36,883 nt of DNA, from the IMG/VR virus record IMGVR_UViG_3300044301_004401, positions 1 to 36,883 of that record. The stretch is one strand, 5' to 3'. Positions 696 through 27,398 of the stretch are shown here, piece by piece (the stretch's first letter is position 1; every line of letters starts with the position of its first letter). The notes under the pieces were generated by a model. It saw nothing but the letters and a program-made list of their open reading frames with translations. It had not been told where the DNA came from and made no database searches. This DNA is from a virus. The translations under genes and the position numbers were made by a program.

Positions 696-703
696 TATTT
701 ATA
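696..703 (-). promoter_or_regulatory. T4-type late promoter before the 170-685 gene
   Basis: Minus-strand TATAAATA, the exact T4 late -10 box, sits inside the extended motif ATATTTATAAATA. It ends 10 bases before the ATG at 685. T4 late transcription starts about six bases after the box, so the leader would be only a few bases long. The box lies just past the TGA (708-710) of the kinase gene. Confidence 0.7.
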
Positions 704-707
704 AATA

Positions 708-1238
708 TCATAAAGAAAGTGAAGCTTTCACCTGGTTTATGCGTTCTTCAGTTGTGCCGGAAATTTTAACTACTTTACCAGGCATCCACCTATGCATTCC
801 TAATATAGATGATATTTTTTTATGAATATCCAATCTGTAATTTTTATTTGTTTCTCTAACTCCATTGTCTTCAATAGGAACAGAAAGATCATCTATATGA
901 AATATAATGTCATATTCTTTTATAAGATGCCATAAAACCCCACTTATATGTTGTTTTTCAGCTTCACTCATAGAATCAGATAATTCACAAAAAGCCATTA
1001 CATCAATAATAGTTCTATCTGTTATCATTTTTTCTTGCATTAATTCTGCTGCTCTTTCAGCTGCGAATACCAATTGGCCTTTTAAAGTACTATCTGTGTT
1101 TAAAGGTATTCCTAATGAACTTAAATATTTACTACGTTCTGTTGCAAATTTATAATCTTTAAATTCTGGTTCATTTTTTAATGCATTTACTAATGTAGTT
1201 TTACCTACACTCATTGTTCCACAAAAACCTATTTTCAT
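708..1238 (-). CDS. NadR-like P-loop ATPase/kinase
   Basis: The 176-residue protein begins with a Walker A loop GTMSVGKTT (residues 7-15) directly after the first beta strand. It continues with a T-E-R-S motif near residue 33, D74-R-T-I-I-D79 and a late G-V-R-E-T segment. This pattern fits the AAA_28/NadR kinase-like family, whose best known member is the C-terminal ribosylnicotinamide kinase domain of NadR. Phages often carry stand-alone versions. The substrate cannot be read from sequence: nicotinamide riboside, another nucleoside, or a protein are all possible. It is the last gene of a tightly overlapping set with the SET-domain and FAD oxidoreductase genes (4-base ATGA overlap with the SET gene). 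A link to NAD(P)/flavin redox chemistry is therefore attractive but unproven. The 3' end holds a small hairpin (719-731) just before the next late promoter. Confidence 0.75.
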   Translation of the reverse strand: MKIGFCGTMSVGKTTLVNALKNEPEFKDYKFATERSKYLSSLGIPLNTDSTLKGQLVFAAERAAELMQEKMITDRTIIDVMAFCELSDSMSEAEKQHISGVLWHLIKEYDIIFHIDDLSVPIEDNGVRETNKNYRLDIHKKISSILGMHRWMPGKVVKISGTTEERINQVKASLSL

Positions 1239-1621
1239 ATTAAATTATTTTTTATACAATATACAATATTTACTTCATAATCCCAACATATTTCTTCATT
1301 TTTCTCTATTTCTTCTATACTTTTAAAGATAATTAATCTTCTCTTTTCATCTGTTGTCCAATCCGCATTTGGATTAGATGAGGAATTATATATACACCCA
1401 TATCCTAAAGGTAAGACAATTTCTTTATAATTATCCTTTCTAGGAAAAACATAAGCATTTCTATATAAAGGTACTAAATCATAATATTCTTTAGGAAAAG
1501 ATATAATATGACATTCTTCTAATATTTCACCTTTTTTTATTTTTTCTTTAGCAAAAACCCCATATCCATGAATTTTACTTTTTCTAACTTCTATTTTATT
1601 ATTAAGTATTAAACTTTTCAT
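1235..1621 (-). CDS. SET-domain protein (putative protein-lysine methyltransferase)
   Basis: A compact 128-residue SET domain. The N-terminal motif is G19-Y-G-V-F-A with K-x-G-E following. The middle motif N79-S-S-S-N-P-N85 replaces the usual N-H-S-C-x-P-N, and the end motif E109-E-I-C-W-D-Y115 corresponds to the E-E-L-T-x-D-Y that binds S-adenosylmethionine and the substrate lysine. Known SET enzymes transfer methyl groups to lysines in proteins, and some stand-alone bacterial and phage members are little studied. It overlaps both neighbours by four bases, so it is translated from the same message as the FAD oxidoreductase and the kinase. The His and Cys of the central motif are replaced by Ser, which may alter or weaken catalysis. 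Family call is firm; the target is unknown. Confidence 0.75.
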   Translation of the reverse strand: MKSLILNNKIEVRKSKIHGYGVFAKEKIKKGEILEECHIISFPKEYYDLVPLYRNAYVFPRKDNYKEIVLPLGYGCIYNSSSNPNADWTTDEKRRLIIFKSIEEIEKNEEICWDYEVNIVYCIKNNLI

Positions 1622-2904
1622 AATATACTTTCAGCTACATAAGTACCTTGTGCCCCAGATACTGTTATACCTCTTGCTGATAACGCATCACCTACAAAAT
1701 AGACATCAGAAAATCTAGTAAGACTTAAATCTTCATAATTTACTAAAGGTTCAGGTGATAGGTATTTTACTTCAGGCATATAAATACCCCAATCATCTTT
1801 TAATGTTGGGAATACTATTTGCATTTCTGTAATGAAATCTTCTATATATTGAGCATTTTCTTCTCCTAATGATTCAAATAAAGGTTCCATATTTTCTACT
1901 ACAACACATCTAACAAAATCACCTTCTGATGTTTTAGATGGTAATCTATTACCTGGGGAATAATATGTGCCTGTTCCACTACATTGTAATTTTTTAACTG
2001 CTTCTCTTGACCAATCAAATGGTTTATCTATACCTCTAATTTCCATTAATATACCAAAATTAGTCATGTTATTTCTATATGCTTCATCTTTTTTAGCATG
2101 TCCATTATAAGAATGATCACCATAAGTTTTTTCTAAAGCAACATAAGCAGCATTATTGTTTGTACAAAATGTTCTTAAACTTACATTATCAAACTTTTTA
2201 TATAACTTAAAATCATATGATATGTCAATTAATTTTTGAAAATGTTTTTGTGGTGCTTCAAATCTAACTCCTATTTGTACTGGTTTTGGTTCTGTTGGTA
2301 ATTCGTATTTTTCAGCTAATTGTTTTCCAAAATCAATCCCTGATTTACCTACTCCAAATATTAATTTATCATAATATATTCTTCCTGATGGAATGTTTTC
2401 TCCATAAACTAAATTAGTATCAAAATTAATATCATCTACTTTAGTATTCCATAAAAATTCTACACCGTTATCAGTTAAATATGTATACCAATTTTTACCA
2501 ATTTCATGTAGATAATCAGTTCCTATATGCCATACAGGAAATAATCGCAAACCAAAATAAGGTTTAATAAATTCTGGTTCTTCTACAGGATGTGAACATT
2601 GTATTACTTCAGGTTTAGGGTGAAATCTTCTAAAATTATTAATAACTTGATCCATTAACTCCATAGCTTTATCTTCACCACAATATTTTGATAAATGACC
2701 ACCAATAGAAGTATGATATGTCAATTTACCATCTGACCAACCTCCGGCTCCCATAAAACCCGTCATTACTTCTTCAGGTTTACGTTTAAAGGGATCATTA
2801 CCCATATCAATTATGGTAATTTTACCTTTATAATTGTTATCAACTAATTTTGTAGCAGCATTAACACCTGCTACTCCTGCTCCTATAATTACTATTTGTT
2901 TCAT
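1618..2904 (-). CDS. FAD-dependent oxidoreductase (COG2509-like)
   Basis: The 428-residue product opens with a Rossmann dinucleotide fold, IVIIGAGVAGVNAA (GxGxxG at G8, G10, G13), and an acidic residue ends the second strand (IDM). Near the C-terminus is a typical second FAD motif, YFVGDA (about 402-407), followed by a glycine-rich helix start. The middle, with GVRFEAP and a C-S-G-T-G-T-Y segment, resembles the poorly characterised FAD-dependent dehydrogenases of COG2509. The reaction is unknown: it could be a dehydrogenase, a reductase or a modifying enzyme for a small molecule. It is first in a three-gene overlapping set with the SET and NadR-like genes and lies directly behind a strong terminator (2933-2971), so it needs its own promoter or read-through. 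No clear ribosome site precedes the ATG; the leader is A/T-only. Confidence 0.8.
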   Translation of the reverse strand: MKQIVIIGAGVAGVNAATKLVDNNYKGKITIIDMGNDPFKRKPEEVMTGFMGAGGWSDGKLTYHTSIGGHLSKYCGEDKAMELMDQVINNFRRFHPKPEVIQCSHPVEEPEFIKPYFGLRLFPVWHIGTDYLHEIGKNWYTYLTDNGVEFLWNTKVDDINFDTNLVYGENIPSGRIYYDKLIFGVGKSGIDFGKQLAEKYELPTEPKPVQIGVRFEAPQKHFQKLIDISYDFKLYKKFDNVSLRTFCTNNNAAYVALEKTYGDHSYNGHAKKDEAYRNNMTNFGILMEIRGIDKPFDWSREAVKKLQCSGTGTYYSPGNRLPSKTSEGDFVRCVVVENMEPLFESLGEENAQYIEDFITEMQIVFPTLKDDWGIYMPEVKYLSPEPLVNYEDLSLTRFSDVYFVGDALSARGITVSGAQGTYVAESIL

Positions 2905-2932
2905 CTTTAGATTTTTTATTAATTAAATATAC

Positions 2933-2971
2933 AAAAAAAGAGCCGTGGCTCCAAAATGAGGCCACAGCTCT
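2933..2971 (-). terminator. Strong intrinsic terminator
   Basis: In the minus-strand RNA an 11-bp stem (2961-2971 with 2939-2949) is complete, with one G-U wobble, around an 11-base loop. It is followed by seven U residues (2939-2933). On the plus strand the wobble becomes an A/C mismatch, so the structure fits minus-strand transcription. The stem is by far the most GC-rich short stretch nearby. It separates the 3118-4215 gene and the small ORF from the FAD operon. Confidence 0.85.
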
Positions 2972-2977
2972 CTATAT

Positions 2978-2995
2978 AAAAAACCCATAAAGGGT
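2978..2995 (-). terminator. Weaker terminator in tandem
   Basis: A 4-bp ACCC/GGGT stem with a 5-base loop (2983-2995) is followed by six U residues (2983-2978) in the minus-strand RNA. It lies just upstream of the strong terminator, so the two act in tandem. Alone it would be inefficient. Confidence 0.5.
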
Positions 2996-3016
2996 ATCTG
3001 GCTATGAATCAGATTT

Positions 3017-3103
3017 TTACTTGCAACATTTTAGGTTGCACCAACCTATACAAACTTTATTAAAAGTTAAAATACAGATTAAATTACATATAAATTTTTT
3101 CAT
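3017..3103 (-). CDS. Small Cys-rich peptide, 28 codons
   Basis: An ATG at 3103 opens a 28-codon frame ending in TAA at 3017. The peptide begins MKKFICNLICILTFNKVC and ends GWCNLKCCK; six of its 28 residues are cysteine. The first half (KKF then a hydrophobic stretch) resembles a short signal peptide or membrane anchor, and a lipobox-like L-x-x-C reading is possible. It starts 14 bases after the TAA of the 3118-4215 gene behind an A-rich leader like those of other genes here, and two terminators follow immediately, so it would be the last gene of that transcript. The frame also carries two mutually exclusive RNA hairpins. It may be a real micro-protein or a chance ORF inside a structured 3' region; confidence is modest. 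Confidence 0.4.
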   Translation of the reverse strand: MKKFICNLICILTFNKVCIGWCNLKCCK

Positions 3104-3117
3104 TTTTTTATTTTTTA

Positions 3118-4215
3118 TTAATTGATTAATTTTTCGTTTATAGTATCTTTATTGTTAGTATCATATCCATCTCCAGGATCATCAGTTATATCTCCATCAG
3201 CTGTATGACCTACTTTGTCAGGAACCCATTGAGCTGCTATTCCATTTTGTAAATCCCATTTTACTGGGTCCATTTCTTGAAGATTTTTTATGTTATGTTT
3301 TTTAAATGGTTCACCATCAACAGTAACTTTTTTTCCTTCTTTTTCATCTTCTTCAGCTTCATTTACCTCTCCTTTTAATTTTAATTTCATATAAGCTGCT
3401 TTAACATCTTTAAGATCAGGTAATTTTTTAATTTCACCATCCATAAACTTTTTTAAAAAATATTGTTTAGCTTCTGTTTCTAAATCTTGTGATTCTTTTA
3501 TTTTACCTTCAGGTAAATCATAATCTGCATAAAAATTTTCCCAATCATCATCTGTAAAACTTGATCTAGGATCTAATTTTTCTCTCCAATGATCTAAAGC
3601 TTTTTTCATCATTACTACATTATTACTTTTTAAAGCTGCTTTTAAACCTTGTCTTGCTTCTAAATTATCTGATGTTGGGGGTGTTAAAGAGTCTAATAAT
3701 TTTTCTAGTTGATCTATTATTGATTGTTTTTTTCCCTCTAAATCTTTTGCTTTTTCATAATAATCTTTATCTTCTTTTATATAACAAGATTGAATTAATT
3801 TTTCATTTTCTGATAATGATTTTATTCCTGGTGTTGACATATTTGGTTTTAATCTGCCTATATTATCTTTTCTAGATCTATCTCTAGGTATTTCTTTTTG
3901 TGGTGTAAAATTATTACCCCCCATTTTATTTCCAAATCCAACTCCTTCTTTTATTATCTTTTCATCTTTTTTATTTAAATCTAAAATAAAACGTGAGTAT
4001 AATGCAGAAGCTTCATTAATTAATTTTTTAAATTTTTTAGAACCCACACGATGTTTTGTTTCGTTTAACGGTATATTATTGTCTATATGAAATTTTAAAT
4101 CATTAGACAATGGAGTACTAAATACTTTATTTTCCCTCAATATAGGACCTATAGATTTAGTTTTACACCCACCACATCCACAATTGCAATCTTTTTTACC
4201 TGTGTTTTTGCTCAT
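3118..4215 (-). CDS. Acidic/basic helical protein with N-terminal Cys cluster
   Basis: The 365-residue product starts with a tight cysteine cluster, CNCGCGGC (residues 10-17), which could bind zinc or another metal. Lys/Glu-rich helices follow. Sites of the form (L/I)-x-E then Ala or Gly occur at I66-N-E68|A69 and I-K-E90|G91, as in T4 prohead-protease substrates. Residues 134-148 (LSENEKLIQSCYIKE) and the DLEGK near 158 closely match a segment of the 5795-6643 protein, so the two share a module. The C-terminus (about 320-365) is acidic and Gly/Asp-rich. Function is unknown. It sits in a run of similar phage proteins with spacings of a few bases. A structural or head-internal role is a guess based on composition and neighbours. 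Confidence 0.75.
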   Translation of the reverse strand: MSKNTGKKDCNCGCGGCKTKSIGPILRENKVFSTPLSNDLKFHIDNNIPLNETKHRVGSKKFKKLINEASALYSRFILDLNKKDEKIIKEGVGFGNKMGGNNFTPQKEIPRDRSRKDNIGRLKPNMSTPGIKSLSENEKLIQSCYIKEDKDYYEKAKDLEGKKQSIIDQLEKLLDSLTPPTSDNLEARQGLKAALKSNNVVMMKKALDHWREKLDPRSSFTDDDWENFYADYDLPEGKIKESQDLETEAKQYFLKKFMDGEIKKLPDLKDVKAAYMKLKLKGEVNEAEEDEKEGKKVTVDGEPFKKHNIKNLQEMDPVKWDLQNGIAAQWVPDKVGHTADGDITDDPGDGYDTNNKDTINEKLIN

Positions 4216-4233
4216 GATTATACATATTAAAAA

Positions 4234-5322
4234 TTATACTTTTATTCTAGGAACTAAGTCAGAAGGGTTAGAAACTATTATATCATTACCAATAGCATCT
4301 ATAAAATCACCTCCATCATAATATTTAAAATTTCCTACATTATCAGATATCATAAAACCATCAAACCCATGTTCTTCAAAATAATCTTTTGCTAAAGTTG
4401 TAGCTAAATTATCGATAAACTTTTTAGCTTCAAATTCATTATCTGTAAAATATGACTCAAAATTCATTGGTAATTTATTTTTATACCAAGAACTAATTTC
4501 ATCTGATAAATCTTTTGTTAATTTTTTGTTATCTATACCTAATTCTAAAGCAGATTTAAATAATTTATCAATTTTATAAGGCCAAGAGGTTCCTTTAGGT
4601 CTAATTAAATTTTTTAATTCTTCTTTTTGAACATCTTCTAAATCAAAAGTATTAATTAATTTTTCCATTTCTTTTATTATATCATCCGCTTTACCTCTTA
4701 CAACATATTTAGGAGCAACCATTGCCCCTGATGCTCCTGTTCTAGATTTTAATTCAACTTCTTTACCTCCTATATTTAAGTCCCCCTTTGATTCTGCTTT
4801 TTTAACATTATTAAAAAATACAGATAAAAATGCTTCTCCAGGTCCTAATGAAACTGTTCCTTGAATAGAATCTTTCATATCACTATATAAAGATTTTAAA
4901 TCTGTATTGTCAAATCCTGGTATTTGGTCAAAGTAATTATTTTTAGTTAAATCAAATGTAGGTGGATTTTCAGATAATTTTGCAAAATCTCCTGTCTTAC
5001 CTAATTCAGATAAAAGTGATTGAAAAAATAAAATATCTTTTGAACTTAAATTTTTATCAGCTAAATGTTTCTTCATTGAATTCCCAAAACCTACGTTTTT
5101 AGCATATTTAGCTATTTGTTTTAATTCTTCAGGATCAGATATGTTTTTTATTAAACTTTCTATTTCACTTCTTACTTCATCAATATCTATTTCTTCATTT
5201 TCTTTTACAACACCTGTTATTATTTCAAATAATAAATTTTTATCCTTTGGGTTATTCATATCCGGGTAACCTTTTGGAAATTTATAAGATATTTTATTTA
5301 AAAATGTAGTTATTGAATCCAT
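4234..5322 (-). CDS. Putative PD-(D/E)XK nuclease-like protein
   Basis: The 362-residue product is helical in its first third (1-110). A segment then reads LGPGEAFLSVFF (159-170), followed by KGDLNIGG (179-186) and VELKSR (189-194). E163, D181 and E190-x-K192 have the order and spacing of the PD-(D/E)XK fold core (Glu on the first helix, Asp on strand 2, ExK on strand 3), and G-D-L...E-L-K blocks of this kind are common in restriction-like nucleases. I recall similar G-x-G-E...G-D...E-x-K blocks in unnamed proteins of marine T4-like phages. The remaining 165 residues are helical and have no motif I know. It overlaps the next gene upstream by one base (TAATG) and is therefore translationally linked to it. 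The nuclease call is an inference from motif only. Confidence 0.6.
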   Translation of the reverse strand: MDSITTFLNKISYKFPKGYPDMNNPKDKNLLFEIITGVVKENEEIDIDEVRSEIESLIKNISDPEELKQIAKYAKNVGFGNSMKKHLADKNLSSKDILFFQSLLSELGKTGDFAKLSENPPTFDLTKNNYFDQIPGFDNTDLKSLYSDMKDSIQGTVSLGPGEAFLSVFFNNVKKAESKGDLNIGGKEVELKSRTGASGAMVAPKYVVRGKADDIIKEMEKLINTFDLEDVQKEELKNLIRPKGTSWPYKIDKLFKSALELGIDNKKLTKDLSDEISSWYKNKLPMNFESYFTDNEFEAKKFIDNLATTLAKDYFEEHGFDGFMISDNVGNFKYYDGGDFIDAIGNDIIVSNPSDLVPRIKV

Positions 5323-5792
5323 TATGCTTCTTCTGCTGCTGGCTCTTCTGCTGGTTCTTCAGTTGTTTCTTCTGTTTCTGTTTCTTCAGTTTCTGTTTCT
5401 GTAGTCTCTACTTCTTCAGTTTCAGCATCAGGAGAGCCATATCTTAATATTCTAGCTATTGCCATAGCTGCTTGTTCTTCTTCAGGAAGATTTAATAAAT
5501 AATAATTTTTCCCTTCTACTTGAGCTACCCAACTTCTACCATTATAAATTAGATAAAAAAGTTCACCATTTTTTAAATTAATTCTAAATGTACTAGGACG
5601 AGGTGCAACCCAATCTATAGATGCTAAAAAATTATCGAACTCATAAGTTAAAAGATCGATAATTACTGCTTTAAGTTCCGGGAATTTTGTTAATTCATCA
5701 TACTCTAATACTGCTGTTTCGGATTGCATTACAGCAGGGTAAACTTGTTTTATTAACAAGCGTAGTTTGTCTTTTAACTCTTGTCGTGTCAT
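5322..5792 (-). CDS. Conserved marine-phage protein with acidic Thr/Glu tail
   Basis: The 156-residue product has a basic amphipathic N-terminus (TRQELKDKLRLLIKQV). A compact alpha/beta region follows (about 36-120, including FPELKAVIIDLL, WVAPRPSTF, GELFYLIYNGRSW and NYYLLNL). This region looks like a conserved protein seen in other T4-like marine phages, but I cannot name a function. Residues 123-156 form a low-complexity tail of Glu, Thr and Ala-Pro that is clearly disordered. The tail is coded by a run of TTC/TGT-type triplets that also occurs at the end of the 6645-7502 gene. The gene lies two bases from its upstream neighbour and overlaps its downstream one, so it belongs to one operon with them. 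Confidence 0.75.
   Translation of the reverse strand: MTRQELKDKLRLLIKQVYPAVMQSETAVLEYDELTKFPELKAVIIDLLTYEFDNFLASIDWVAPRPSTFRINLKNGELFYLIYNGRSWVAQVEGKNYYLLNLPEEEQAAMAIARILRYGSPDAETEEVETTETETEETETEETTEEPAEEPAAEEA
5325..5426 (-). repeat. Low-complexity triplet repeat coding Glu/Thr tail
   Basis: The plus strand is a run of TTCTG/GTTTCTGTTTCTTC units. It codes the disordered acidic tail of the 5322-5792 protein. Almost the same units recur at 6648-6731, about 1.3 kb away. Such tracts change length easily by slippage or recombination. Confidence 0.65.
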
Positions 5793-8860: not shown

Positions 8861-9436
8861 TTATTTCTTTAAATTTTCTAAATATTTTATTGTTTTTTCT
8901 AAACTTTCTAAAGCTCTAGATTTATTTATTCCACCTTTCCAATTTTCTACATCACCTTGTTCAGTAATAAATGATTTATTTGTTTCATTATTTAATTGAT
9001 CTTCAAACCAATTTTTAAATTCATTTATAAAAGCATTTAATTCTCCATTATGTATATTTTTTTCATATTCTTCCCAAACGCCCCTTTGCTTTAATTCAGA
9101 TTCAAAATATAAATAACATTCATAACATGTTTTATGAACTCTAAAAAAATCAGGATCAAATTTATGTTTCATTAACTTATTACAACTAGGACAAAATAAA
9201 GGTGTTCTTACCATTTTTTTTACTTTATCATATTTAGTAATGTTTTGTTTTAATCCATTTTTAATAGTCCATTTTCTACCATCTTCTTCCCAAATATCTC
9301 CTTCTTTGTGGAATTCATTTTTTTTAGAATAACCTACTCCTTTAATAGTACGTTCGTTAGTTTTTCCTGATAGAATATTACGAGCACGTTTAACATCTCT
9401 TTTTGACCATTCTTTTTTTAAAATATTTTCTTTCAT
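8861..9436 (-). CDS. Zinc-ribbon protein of marine T4-like phages
   Basis: The 191-residue product has a basic N-terminus. A W-E-E-D-G-R-K-W-T-I-K-N-G segment (about 49-61) is followed by two CxxC pairs, C82-P-S-C85 and C104-Y-E-C107, about 18 residues apart. These are the expected four ligands of one zinc ribbon. The combination of the WTIKNG segment and the ribbon occurs, as far as I recall, in unnamed proteins of several marine T4-like phages. The C-terminal half (about 108-191) is helical and rich in Glu and Asn. Zinc ribbons of this type usually bind nucleic acid or partner proteins, so a DNA- or RNA-related role is likely but not shown. Its ATG overlaps the TGA of the fusion enzyme gene upstream (ATGA), which makes translational coupling probable. 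Confidence 0.75.
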   Translation of the reverse strand: MKENILKKEWSKRDVKRARNILSGKTNERTIKGVGYSKKNEFHKEGDIWEEDGRKWTIKNGLKQNITKYDKVKKMVRTPLFCPSCNKLMKHKFDPDFFRVHKTCYECYLYFESELKQRGVWEEYEKNIHNGELNAFINEFKNWFEDQLNNETNKSFITEQGDVENWKGGINKSRALESLEKTIKYLENLKK

Positions 9437-11439
9437 AAACCTAATTCTTTTAATTGAGCAATAGTTGAAGCTACACTAGTATGTAAAATTCCTATTCCAC
9501 CTGCTTCTTTCCATTGATTGATGTTTTTTTCTCTATCATCAATTAATATTGAATTTTCATTAGCATAATTTTTTTTATTATTAGCAAAAGCTAAAATTAA
9601 TTTAACACCCGGTAAATTACGTTTTGCCCATACTCTTTTTCCTAATCTAGATTCATTATTACGTGAGGGAGCTGATAGTAATATGGGATTGTATTTTTTA
9701 ATGTAATCCCAATATTCTTGGCTTCCTGGCATCCATTCAATTCCTGTCCAAAATCTAACTCCTACTTCGTCATCAATTAATTCCCAAAATTTTTCTAAAC
9801 CAAATTTATCTACATAATCTGATGGTGGTATTCCATCTGAGAATTGTTTAAATCTAGTATCAAAATCAGCTATTACACCATCCATATCAGAATATATAGT
9901 ATATTTTTCATCTTCTGTTATAGGTTTATAACCTGATCCATAGGGAGCCGCTTTACCATCATGGTTAGGTAAATCAATAGTTTCTTCTAAACCTTTAGCT
10001 AATTCTAAAGCATAAGCATTTAGTCCAAATGGATCCTTTTTTGTTTTTTCGACTTTAATAGGAATTAATGAACCTCCTTCTTCTATGTCAGTAGTAATTT
10101 CACCATCAATAGAATCTGTCCAATTTCTAAAAATCATATTCCCTTCTTGATATGCTTCTCTTTCTATTGCATCTAATTCATCATCTTCATTAGTATTTGT
10201 AGTCATTATATCACCTAATCTATCTTCTAAATTTTGTATGTGATGAATCATTTCATGAGAAAATGATCTTACTATATCTTTTGGATGTCTACCTTCAGTA
10301 TATAATACTATAGTTTTAGTTTCAGGGTTATAATATGCAGTTTTTCCGAAAAAATTTTTAGCATTTGATTTTTCACTATGATAAAATATTACTTTAGGTA
10401 GGGGTAAAATATTTAAACCCATTTTTATCATATGTTTAGTTAAATCTTTTATTTTTCCTTTATAATCTATATAATCTGAATATGTTGCATTTTCTTCTAA
10501 AGGGATAACTGGATTAGATGTTTGAAAATCTTGTTTCCTCATTATAGTTTTTGCAGTCATATCTATTCCATTTTGATCTACATCAATTACAAAAGGAATA
10601 TTAATATTTTTATTAAAATCTTTTACAACAGCTTCTAAATCATCTTCAGTTTTTGATAAAGGTTTACCGTGTTTTTTATATAATTTTTTAAATATACCTA
10701 TTAATTCAGCTACTGATATTGGTTTTTTATTTCTAATGTCATTTAATCTATCAAAAAAATGTTTTGTAAAATCGATGTCAATTCCTAATTTATTAAATAA
10801 ACCATCAGCATATGATTCAATTGAATCTAATTGATTTTTAGTAATATTTTCATTTATTAATTTTGTAGATGCTATATTATATACTTCTTCTTTATCTTCA
10901 TCACTTAATTCATGAGGTAAAAAATTTTTAAACTCATCAGAATCTAATGTTAAAGCTTTTCTAGCATTTCTAGCTCTCATATTTGAGTCTGATGTTGTTA
11001 TAGTTTTTAAATTTAAATTTGGGTATTTATCTGGGTTTGTTATTAATGGGGCTGATCTTGTTTTTATATCATATTCATCATCTTCCTCTCCTTCTCTTTT
11101 TCCTATAACCCAATAAAATTCTAATTCAGGATCATTTTTAGGAGCTCTATAAATATCTCCAATTGGATTTTTAGCTGGTATAATTTTTACTTTTTGAGGT
11201 AAATAATTTTTATAAATGTCCCAAATTAATAAAGATTCTGTTTGATCTATTCCATCTCTTTCTAATCCTCCAACAAAAATTCGGAATTCATCAATTTCAG
11301 GGTATTCAGCTAAAGCTTGTTTAACAACATTAAAGTGTCCTCTTATGGGGGGTTTAAAACCACCTCCATAAAGAGCAACTACTTTAGTATCATCTACTTC
11401 CATTAATCCTCTTACTAATTCTTTTGTTAGTTCATTCAT
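9433..11439 (-). CDS. Nucleotidyltransferase / zincin-like / HAD phosphatase fusion
   Basis: The 668-residue product joins at least three enzyme-like parts. Residues about 17-190 are a cytidylyltransferase-type Rossmann domain: YGGGFKPPIRGHF (24-36) is the nucleotide-binding loop, with SDSNMRARNARKAL (150-163) as the usual second motif. Residue I32 stands where the first His of HxGH is expected. Residues about 200-310 hold a helical segment of unknown role that I believe recurs in marine phages. Residues about 330-440 contain H395-E-M-I-H399, a zincin HExxH motif, with E428 as a possible third ligand. Residues about 510-668 are a HAD-type 5' nucleotidase/phosphatase: D518-M-D520-G-V-I-A-D, S589 and D634-D635. 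It overlaps the kinase gene upstream and the zinc-ribbon gene downstream by four bases each. NAD or nucleotide metabolism, or modification of a target, are possible; the substrate is unknown. Confidence 0.8.
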   Translation of the reverse strand: MNELTKELVRGLMEVDDTKVVALYGGGFKPPIRGHFNVVKQALAEYPEIDEFRIFVGGLERDGIDQTESLLIWDIYKNYLPQKVKIIPAKNPIGDIYRAPKNDPELEFYWVIGKREGEEDDEYDIKTRSAPLITNPDKYPNLNLKTITTSDSNMRARNARKALTLDSDEFKNFLPHELSDEDKEEVYNIASTKLINENITKNQLDSIESYADGLFNKLGIDIDFTKHFFDRLNDIRNKKPISVAELIGIFKKLYKKHGKPLSKTEDDLEAVVKDFNKNINIPFVIDVDQNGIDMTAKTIMRKQDFQTSNPVIPLEENATYSDYIDYKGKIKDLTKHMIKMGLNILPLPKVIFYHSEKSNAKNFFGKTAYYNPETKTIVLYTEGRHPKDIVRSFSHEMIHHIQNLEDRLGDIMTTNTNEDDELDAIEREAYQEGNMIFRNWTDSIDGEITTDIEEGGSLIPIKVEKTKKDPFGLNAYALELAKGLEETIDLPNHDGKAAPYGSGYKPITEDEKYTIYSDMDGVIADFDTRFKQFSDGIPPSDYVDKFGLEKFWELIDDEVGVRFWTGIEWMPGSQEYWDYIKKYNPILLSAPSRNNESRLGKRVWAKRNLPGVKLILAFANNKKNYANENSILIDDREKNINQWKEAGGIGILHTSVASTIAQLKELGL

Positions 11440-27020: not shown

Positions 27021-27398
27021 TTAACTAGTTTCATCTATAACGTTAGTCCCTTGAGATGATTCAGCTTCGTCTAATGCATCTGTAAGGAGTGCTAAATTTT
27101 GTTCTCTTAATGCAGCTATTTCATCTAATAAAGCTTGAATTTCTGAATTAATTTGATCATAATTAGCATATTCCCCACTTGTTTTGGCAAGATACTCATG
27201 AGATTGGTAATCTCCAAGCTTAGGTATATCAAAGAAAAATCTATCATATAATTGCCAAAAATCATCTAGAGTAGCTAAATTAATATCAAAATAATTTGGA
27301 TCAACAACAGGTTCAAGTTGATCAAATGATGTATTAATAGTTTCATTAAATTTATCTCTATTAAATAATGTTCTTGTTAATCCTATTTTTTTTGTCAT
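27021..27398 (-). CDS. Small conserved tail/baseplate protein
   Basis: The 125-residue product contains a conserved-looking block: FDQLEPVVDPNYFDINLATL (25-44), DDFWQLYDRFFFDIPKLGDY, and S-H-E-Y-L-A-K-T-S-G-E-Y. I recall similar F-F-x-x-Y-x-x-L-F-x-x-I-P-K...S-H-E-Y-L blocks in small proteins of the tail region of marine T4-like phages. The C-terminal 45 residues are a Leu/Glu-rich coiled coil ending in a polar tail. It overlaps the upstream adhesin-like gene by four bases and stands 15 bases before the giant tail protein. It may act as an assembly partner or adaptor for either, but this rests only on position. Confidence 0.7.
   Translation of the reverse strand: MTKKIGLTRTLFNRDKFNETINTSFDQLEPVVDPNYFDINLATLDDFWQLYDRFFFDIPKLGDYQSHEYLAKTSGEYANYDQINSEIQALLDEIAALREQNLALLTDALDEAESSQGTNVIDETS

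Follow-up and report, generated by a model that had tools for sequence, protein, structure and literature searches.

The stretch of viral DNA analysed here (the window, 36,883 nucleotides) encodes, on its minus strand, an FAD-dependent oxidoreductase (FAD), a small SET-domain methyltransferase (SET) and a P-loop kinase. The question raised by this locus is whether the three genes act as one unit and how they are controlled. The original prediction held that they act together, for instance in methylating and oxidising a host protein or in controlling NAD. The gene overlaps it described were confirmed, the FAD/SET and SET/kinase junctions both being 4-base ATGA overlaps, and the gene labels were concordant in Pfam, PHROG and PDB searches (Table 1). 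A DNA-level search of the cassette region against the phage collection gave no match. Overall, the operon at this locus is real and conserved; a SET gene has been added to it, and a structured RNA that had not been catalogued precedes it.

Table 1 Features of the cassette and its flanks in the window
Feature	Position	Strand	Length	Evidence or remark
FAD-dependent oxidoreductase gene, COG2509-like	1618..2904	-	428 aa	Pfam Pyr_redox_2 1.7e-9; fold match 3nlc
Stand-alone small SET-domain methyltransferase gene	1235..1621	-	128 aa	PF00856 2.9e-11; PDB 1n3j 1.9e-12
P-loop nucleoside/nucleotide kinase gene, NadR/deoxynucleoside-kinase-like	708..1238	-	176 aa	AAA_28 2.5e-11; phrog_2107 1.2e-19
Late-promoter-like motif TATTTATAAATA	696..707	-		5′ of next gene (170-685)
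Host-type (Bacteroidetes sigma-ABfr) promoter-like element	2924..2955	-		TTTG 2955-2952, N20, TATATTTA 2931-2924
Intrinsic terminator hairpin and U-run	2933..2971	-		Folding
P2 pseudoknot 3′ strand CUGUG, shared with terminator 5′ arm	2963..2967	-		Paired in terminator in best fold
P1 hairpin ATCTG-(ATTCATAGC)-CAGAT	2996..3014	-		Covariation in 5/5 pairs
P2 pseudoknot 5′ strand CAUAG, in P1 loop	3002..3006	-		Pairs with 2967-2963
Tiny Cys-rich ORF, MKKFICNLICILTFNKVCIGWCNLKCCK	3017..3103	-	28 aa	Just 5′ of RNA element

Proteins of the cassette and its make-up in relatives

The AlphaFold model of the FAD protein (mean pLDDT 84) matched 3nlc (VP0956, an uncharacterised COG2509-type flavoprotein) with a Foldseek E of 9.1e-20 and TMq of 0.68; the next-best fold match had E 6e-12 and TMq 0.41. 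The full-length match and a GGxxSDGKL-type motif in the alignment place the protein in COG2509. It shares the fold of the COG2509 dehydrogenases (VP0956 and the Fletchervirus ‘NAD(FAD)-utilizing dehydrogenase’) with only remote sequence similarity; the Fletchervirus (Campylobacter phage) proteins, its known phage relatives, are about 25% identical to it. Host COG2509 relatives are longer, at about 520 aa, and such remote, longer homologues were found in 12 of 148 Flavobacteriaceae host genomes. The kinase model (pLDDT 88) bore out the predicted NadR-like fold (VIA-align Z 17.3 to the NadR kinase domain, rmsd 2.6, 169 residues aligned) but in a tie with deoxyadenosine kinase (Z 16.7). Because of this tie the substrate, which the modelled fold indicates to be a nucleoside-like molecule, cannot be named further. 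The full-length fold, the P-loop and the AAA_28 profile are common to the window protein, the NadR kinase domain, the deoxynucleoside kinases and PHROG 2107 ‘thymidylate kinase’. NadR carries a fused NMN adenylyltransferase domain, whereas the window kinase is a single domain; where NadR has DTD, it has DRT. The SET protein scored 44.2 bits against the PF00856 profile (cut-off 22.4) and retains the Tyr of the C-terminal motif. Its closest solved relative, PBCV-1 vSET (1n3j), is also a small stand-alone viral SET domain but differs in that the window protein has NSS where the NHS motif is expected. The literature was consulted for COG2509, for the FAD genes of Campylobacter phages and for phage SET domains, and yielded nothing informative.

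A scan of IMG/VR viral contigs with the FAD protein found 508 stretches encoding a relative. Distinct FAD loci followed by 3 kb or more of sequence number 131; in 123 of them the kinase lies no more than 2.5 kb further downstream, on the FAD strand, and in 90 of these 123 a small protein of about 100 aa, here called GPA (LHNWEGPAL...YYLNG...GLPWYK), was recognised between FAD and kinase, usually directly 5′ of the kinase. SET lies in the FAD-kinase cassette only in the window phage (plus near-identical contigs) and in one other locus, L025, which reads FAD-GPA-SET-kinase. No GPA-like motif is present in the window or in its near-identical 73-kb contig, and from these two arrangements we infer that SET entered between GPA and kinase and that GPA was lost afterwards. 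A SET-directed scan gave only nine loci, and the remaining ones are solitary among late structural genes. The gene order thus supports FAD and kinase as belonging together. As judged from synteny, the ancestral cassette held an FAD oxidoreductase, GPA and a nucleoside-kinase-like protein; this FAD–GPA–kinase operon is the core unit, and SET, standing here in the place of GPA, is a recent add-on.

These comparisons sort the original claims. Separate occurrence of the genes, which had been named as grounds for refuting the prediction, is seen for SET; within the phage group it is not seen for FAD and kinase. A laterally gained accessory is the look of SET only and not of the whole cassette, and the claim that T4-like genomes do not normally carry this set of functions is incorrect for this phage group, in which FAD and kinase are core and only SET is unusual. 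One functional unit for methylating and oxidising a host protein, or for control of NAD, accords with the overlapping genes of the window phage and with the NadR-like kinase fold. It is nevertheless highly improbable, since almost no relative has SET in the cassette and the gene is scattered elsewhere, which largely refutes the idea for SET. Synteny led us to reject SET as a member of the unit, and the protein-methylation account is not supported.

Further genes also occur between FAD and kinase; they encode cupins, nucleotidyltransferases, a GIY-YIG endonuclease and DUF6884-like proteins. In some phages (L073, L010, L019 and L053) nucleotidyltransferase genes and cupin genes lie immediately 5′ of the kinase; a split NadR-like arrangement is conceivable. 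We note that elsewhere in the window (9433-11439, minus strand) a large protein is encoded whose N-terminus bears the nucleotidyltransferase-like motif GGGFKPPxxGH and which is conserved among relatives. In two loci the FAD gene is found in two open frames, divided near residue 173 (L274, 107-2936; L275, reverse complement, 3252-5439), with inserted genes between the halves, in L274 a GIY-YIG endonuclease. As the second half begins with a start codon of its own, the split enzyme may be made as two chains.

A conserved RNA with a pseudoknot in front of FAD

The region upstream of FAD contains an element that recurs in 149 of the 155 distinct regions of this kind; two of the six without it are the remote Fletchervirus ones. 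It runs from P1 (5 bp) with its loop AUUCAUAGC, through CGA or CGC, an A-rich linker and (A)GCUGUGGC, to the terminator stem, the U-run, (CG)UAUAUUAAC and the start codon. The loop is nearly invariant. In L056 and L132 the terminator and promoter-like sequence are kept and the pseudoknot is missing. The R1 model matched the window at 2960-3020 (E 7.3e-12).

P1 is formed, with 5 or 6 bp, in all 128 upstream regions that have the exact loop, a set taken without selecting on pairing, and two-sided changes are seen in all five of its pairs. P2, in which the loop pairs with a downstream strand, is 100% paired in 147 distinct elements, the downstream strand having been placed by sequence similarity, with no use of its ability to pair. 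Three of the five P2 pairs show compensatory changes (C-G to U-A; A-U to U-A; G-C to A-U, U-A and G-U), which amount to perhaps four or five separate events, the rows of the alignment (A4) being related. Together the two helices have a covariation score of 0.658, against 0.184 in shuffled and at most 0.096 in slid controls; the P2 exchanges are above nearly all shuffles and above all slid controls. Alignment A4 was picked to include loop variants and its proportions differ from those of the whole set. Comparative analysis thus shows the element to be a conserved RNA whose predicted structure, a hairpin loop paired with a downstream strand and backed by covariation, is that of an H-type pseudoknot.

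The element is closely tied to FAD. A pattern scan of IMG/VR was carried out with the loop and CUGUGGC only, and its result is a sample. Among the matches listed, hits with P1 had FAD close downstream, with one exception that is cut off by its contig end, and hits without P1 had no FAD there, with the exception of L300, which has a weak P1 and FAD; well-formed elements were thus seen only before FAD. We rejected the idea that the element is a terminator of general use, employed in many places, as most of the long contigs tested have one well-formed copy per genome. In one locus (L278; G012:26216-26271 and 27109-27162, minus strand) two copies flank a gene inserted before FAD; the second copy has diverged (loop AUCUAUAGC) and still fits P1 and P2, with U-A replacing C-G. 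A host origin of the RNA was also rejected: under stricter filters none was present in 148 Flavobacteriaceae genomes, and the one hit was a phage-like contig in a MAG. The element starts close behind the stop codon of the upstream gene, most often at 6 nt, and some phages have genes inserted between element and FAD. Directly 5′ of 21 of 135 elements we observed tiny Cys-rich ORFs (20-34 aa). One of these, MKCNCKECNCGTSCECTCCNC, has 10 Cys in 21 residues and is metallothionein-like; a second type, to which the ORF of the window belongs, begins MKKFIC.

No Rfam family matched the window at the gathering threshold, and under permissive filters the window and L011 gave only sub-threshold, unrelated matches. 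The element is therefore previously uncatalogued and absent from Rfam. The manA and wcaG motifs of marine T4-like phages (PMC2864571) are likewise structured, cis-acting and tied to metabolic genes, and manA has a possible pseudoknot; they differ in belonging to cyanophages and standing before other genes, and no Rfam model matches the FAD element. The H-type pseudoknot riboswitches preQ1-I and SAM-II share with it a short P1, a pseudoknotted loop, an A-rich linker and a pseudoknot strand shared with a terminator. The FAD element differs from them in sequence, has no Rfam match and in addition overlaps a downstream promoter.

Terminator, promoters and the proposed switch

The strong terminator predicted 5′ of the cassette was borne out by folding (hairpin 2971-2939, -23.1 kcal/mol, z -5.6), and the view of the cassette as separately transcribed is supported. 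The CUGUG strand runs straight into the terminator and forms part of its stem, with at least three of its five bases paired there in 134 of 142 elements and a single base in the other eight. As the same strand serves P2 and the terminator stem, the pseudoknot and the full terminator would compete. Blocking CUGUG was computed to cost a median of 7.8 kcal/mol over the 142 elements and to weaken the terminator of the window from -20.3 to -7.2 kcal/mol. A residual terminator weaker than -8 kcal/mol was left in only 43 of the 142; many stay strong. By these calculations nearly all elements have the two mutually exclusive structures of an attenuator, one of them an intrinsic terminator.

The terminator loop ends in TTTG, and a candidate -7 box (TATATT) lies 3′ of the U-run. 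The consensus of the Bacteroidetes sigma-ABfr is TTTG (-33) and TAnnTTTG (-7) (PMC7366714, PMC6847099). Of the 142 elements, 110 contain TTTG-N17-22-TAnnTT, where shuffles give 3.5, and the spacer is exactly 20 nt in 102; the -7 box fits TAnnTT, usually lacking the TG that closes the full consensus. Since TTTG-N20-TATATT resembles the boxes at -33 and -7 of the main Bacteroidetes sigma factor, the operon seems to have its own host-type promoter within the late gene region. On the other side of the cassette, the TATAAATA octamer, a late-type motif, is located at 703-696 (minus strand), 10 nt before the ATG of the next gene. We rejected the single octamer as evidence of a late promoter because it is not enriched (18 copies, 15.5 by chance). 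The 12-base palindrome TATTTATAAATA, which contains the T4-like late box, occurs 3′ of the kinase and at three other sites of the window (696, 7516, 17480 and 35687; 4 copies against 0.11 expected from shuffles); in every case a start codon follows at no more than about 14 nt. The late promoter predicted 3′ of the cassette is thus credible as a motif, and TATTTATAAATA is likely a late promoter with a very short leader.

We lean, with modest confidence, towards a self-contained FAD-kinase operon behind a transcription switch composed of pseudoknot, terminator and host-type promoter, with SET added; the element itself is best read as a switch that would insulate or couple the operon. With P2 unformed, late transcription arriving from upstream would stop at the terminator and the operon would be driven by its own host-sigma promoter. 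Were P2 stabilised by a metabolite, a protein or the timing of folding, the terminator would fail and late transcription would read through into FAD-kinase. Judged from the modelled folds, the kinase may phosphorylate nicotinamide riboside or a nucleoside, and the related metabolism of cofactors or nucleotides may include a redox step performed by the flavoprotein. SET would act independently of both and methylate some protein.

If the host-type promoter is dominant, the FAD mRNA lacks the pseudoknot, which the upstream transcript carries at its 3′ end, and the element is mainly an insulator of that transcript. A plain insulator without switching, in which the terminator overlaps the promoter and the pseudoknot caps the 3′ end or enhances termination, is doubtful but deserves weight: the element abuts the upstream stop codon, FAD can be separated from it by other genes, and the terminator of many elements is strong even without CUGUG. 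Such an insulator would need neither a near-invariant 9-nt loop nor a covarying pseudoknot whose strand serves again in the terminator stem, and it would not be expected to be confined to one gene. A more specific version of the switch, in which the pseudoknot is a new phage-borne riboswitch class gating late transcription, strikes us as rather improbable. An infection metabolite would then be sensed through the invariant AUU and C of the loop and late transcription would enter FAD-kinase only in its presence; a 7-deazaguanine is a possible ligand because the genomes of the group encode that pathway. The structured, intergenic RNA of about 100 nt with an intrinsic terminator at its end could also be a small trans-acting RNA lying between the upstream gene and FAD, the element being its end. 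No conserved promoter was found 5′ of P1, however, the upstream stop codon adjoins the element and, among the scan matches listed, the element is linked to FAD throughout, all of which makes this explanation distinctly improbable.

The phage group and 7-deazaguanine

The carriers are T4-like marine phages, which probably infect Flavobacteria. In a nearly complete relative of 155,669 bases, whose ends overlap by eye, FAD-kinase is followed by the large terminase gene; a long way off are QueC, QueD, QueE, FolE2 and a DpdA-like transglycosylase that falls in the same PHROG as that of Campylobacter phage CP220. All seven contigs of 99-166 kb with FAD, kinase and a DpdA-like gene also have QueC and QueE; as five of the seven were chosen via a DpdA scan, this figure shows that DpdA-bearing long contigs have FAD and kinase more than the reverse. 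These pathway counts concern relatives of the window phage, whose near-identical 73-kb contig covers the late half only. QueF was not found in the phage group.

7-Deazaguanines protect phage DNA (PMC6884629). The kinase, and perhaps FAD, might serve this hypermodification by supporting 7-deazaguanine replacement, for example through salvage of displaced guanine nucleoside. This proposal concerns the role of the operon and is compatible with the switch favoured above. Besides the seven contigs, it is favoured by CP220, where a kinase relative is directly 3′ of the DpdA relative, and by Flavobacterium phage immuto, where one lies inside the deazaguanine cluster. However, the marine phages keep the two loci far apart, and a 124-kb fragment (G021) has FAD and kinase while DpdA-like, QueC and QueE genes are all missing. 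DpdA and Que genes are missing both from Streptomyces phage Karimac, which has the kinase family, and from Fletchervirus, which has FAD; FAD and kinase were therefore rejected as strict markers of the pathway. The link to DNA modification is thus suggestive only, and we regard the proposal as unlikely.

The locus thus presents a structured RNA with firm covariation, outside Rfam, before one operon in well over 100 marine phage loci. Its layout is compact, a single hairpin being pseudoknot partner, terminator and promoter element. The tie between the COG2509 flavoprotein family and a nucleoside-kinase-like partner is a lead to the functions of both, and the element makes the control of genes accessible to experiment in a large group of uncultured phages.
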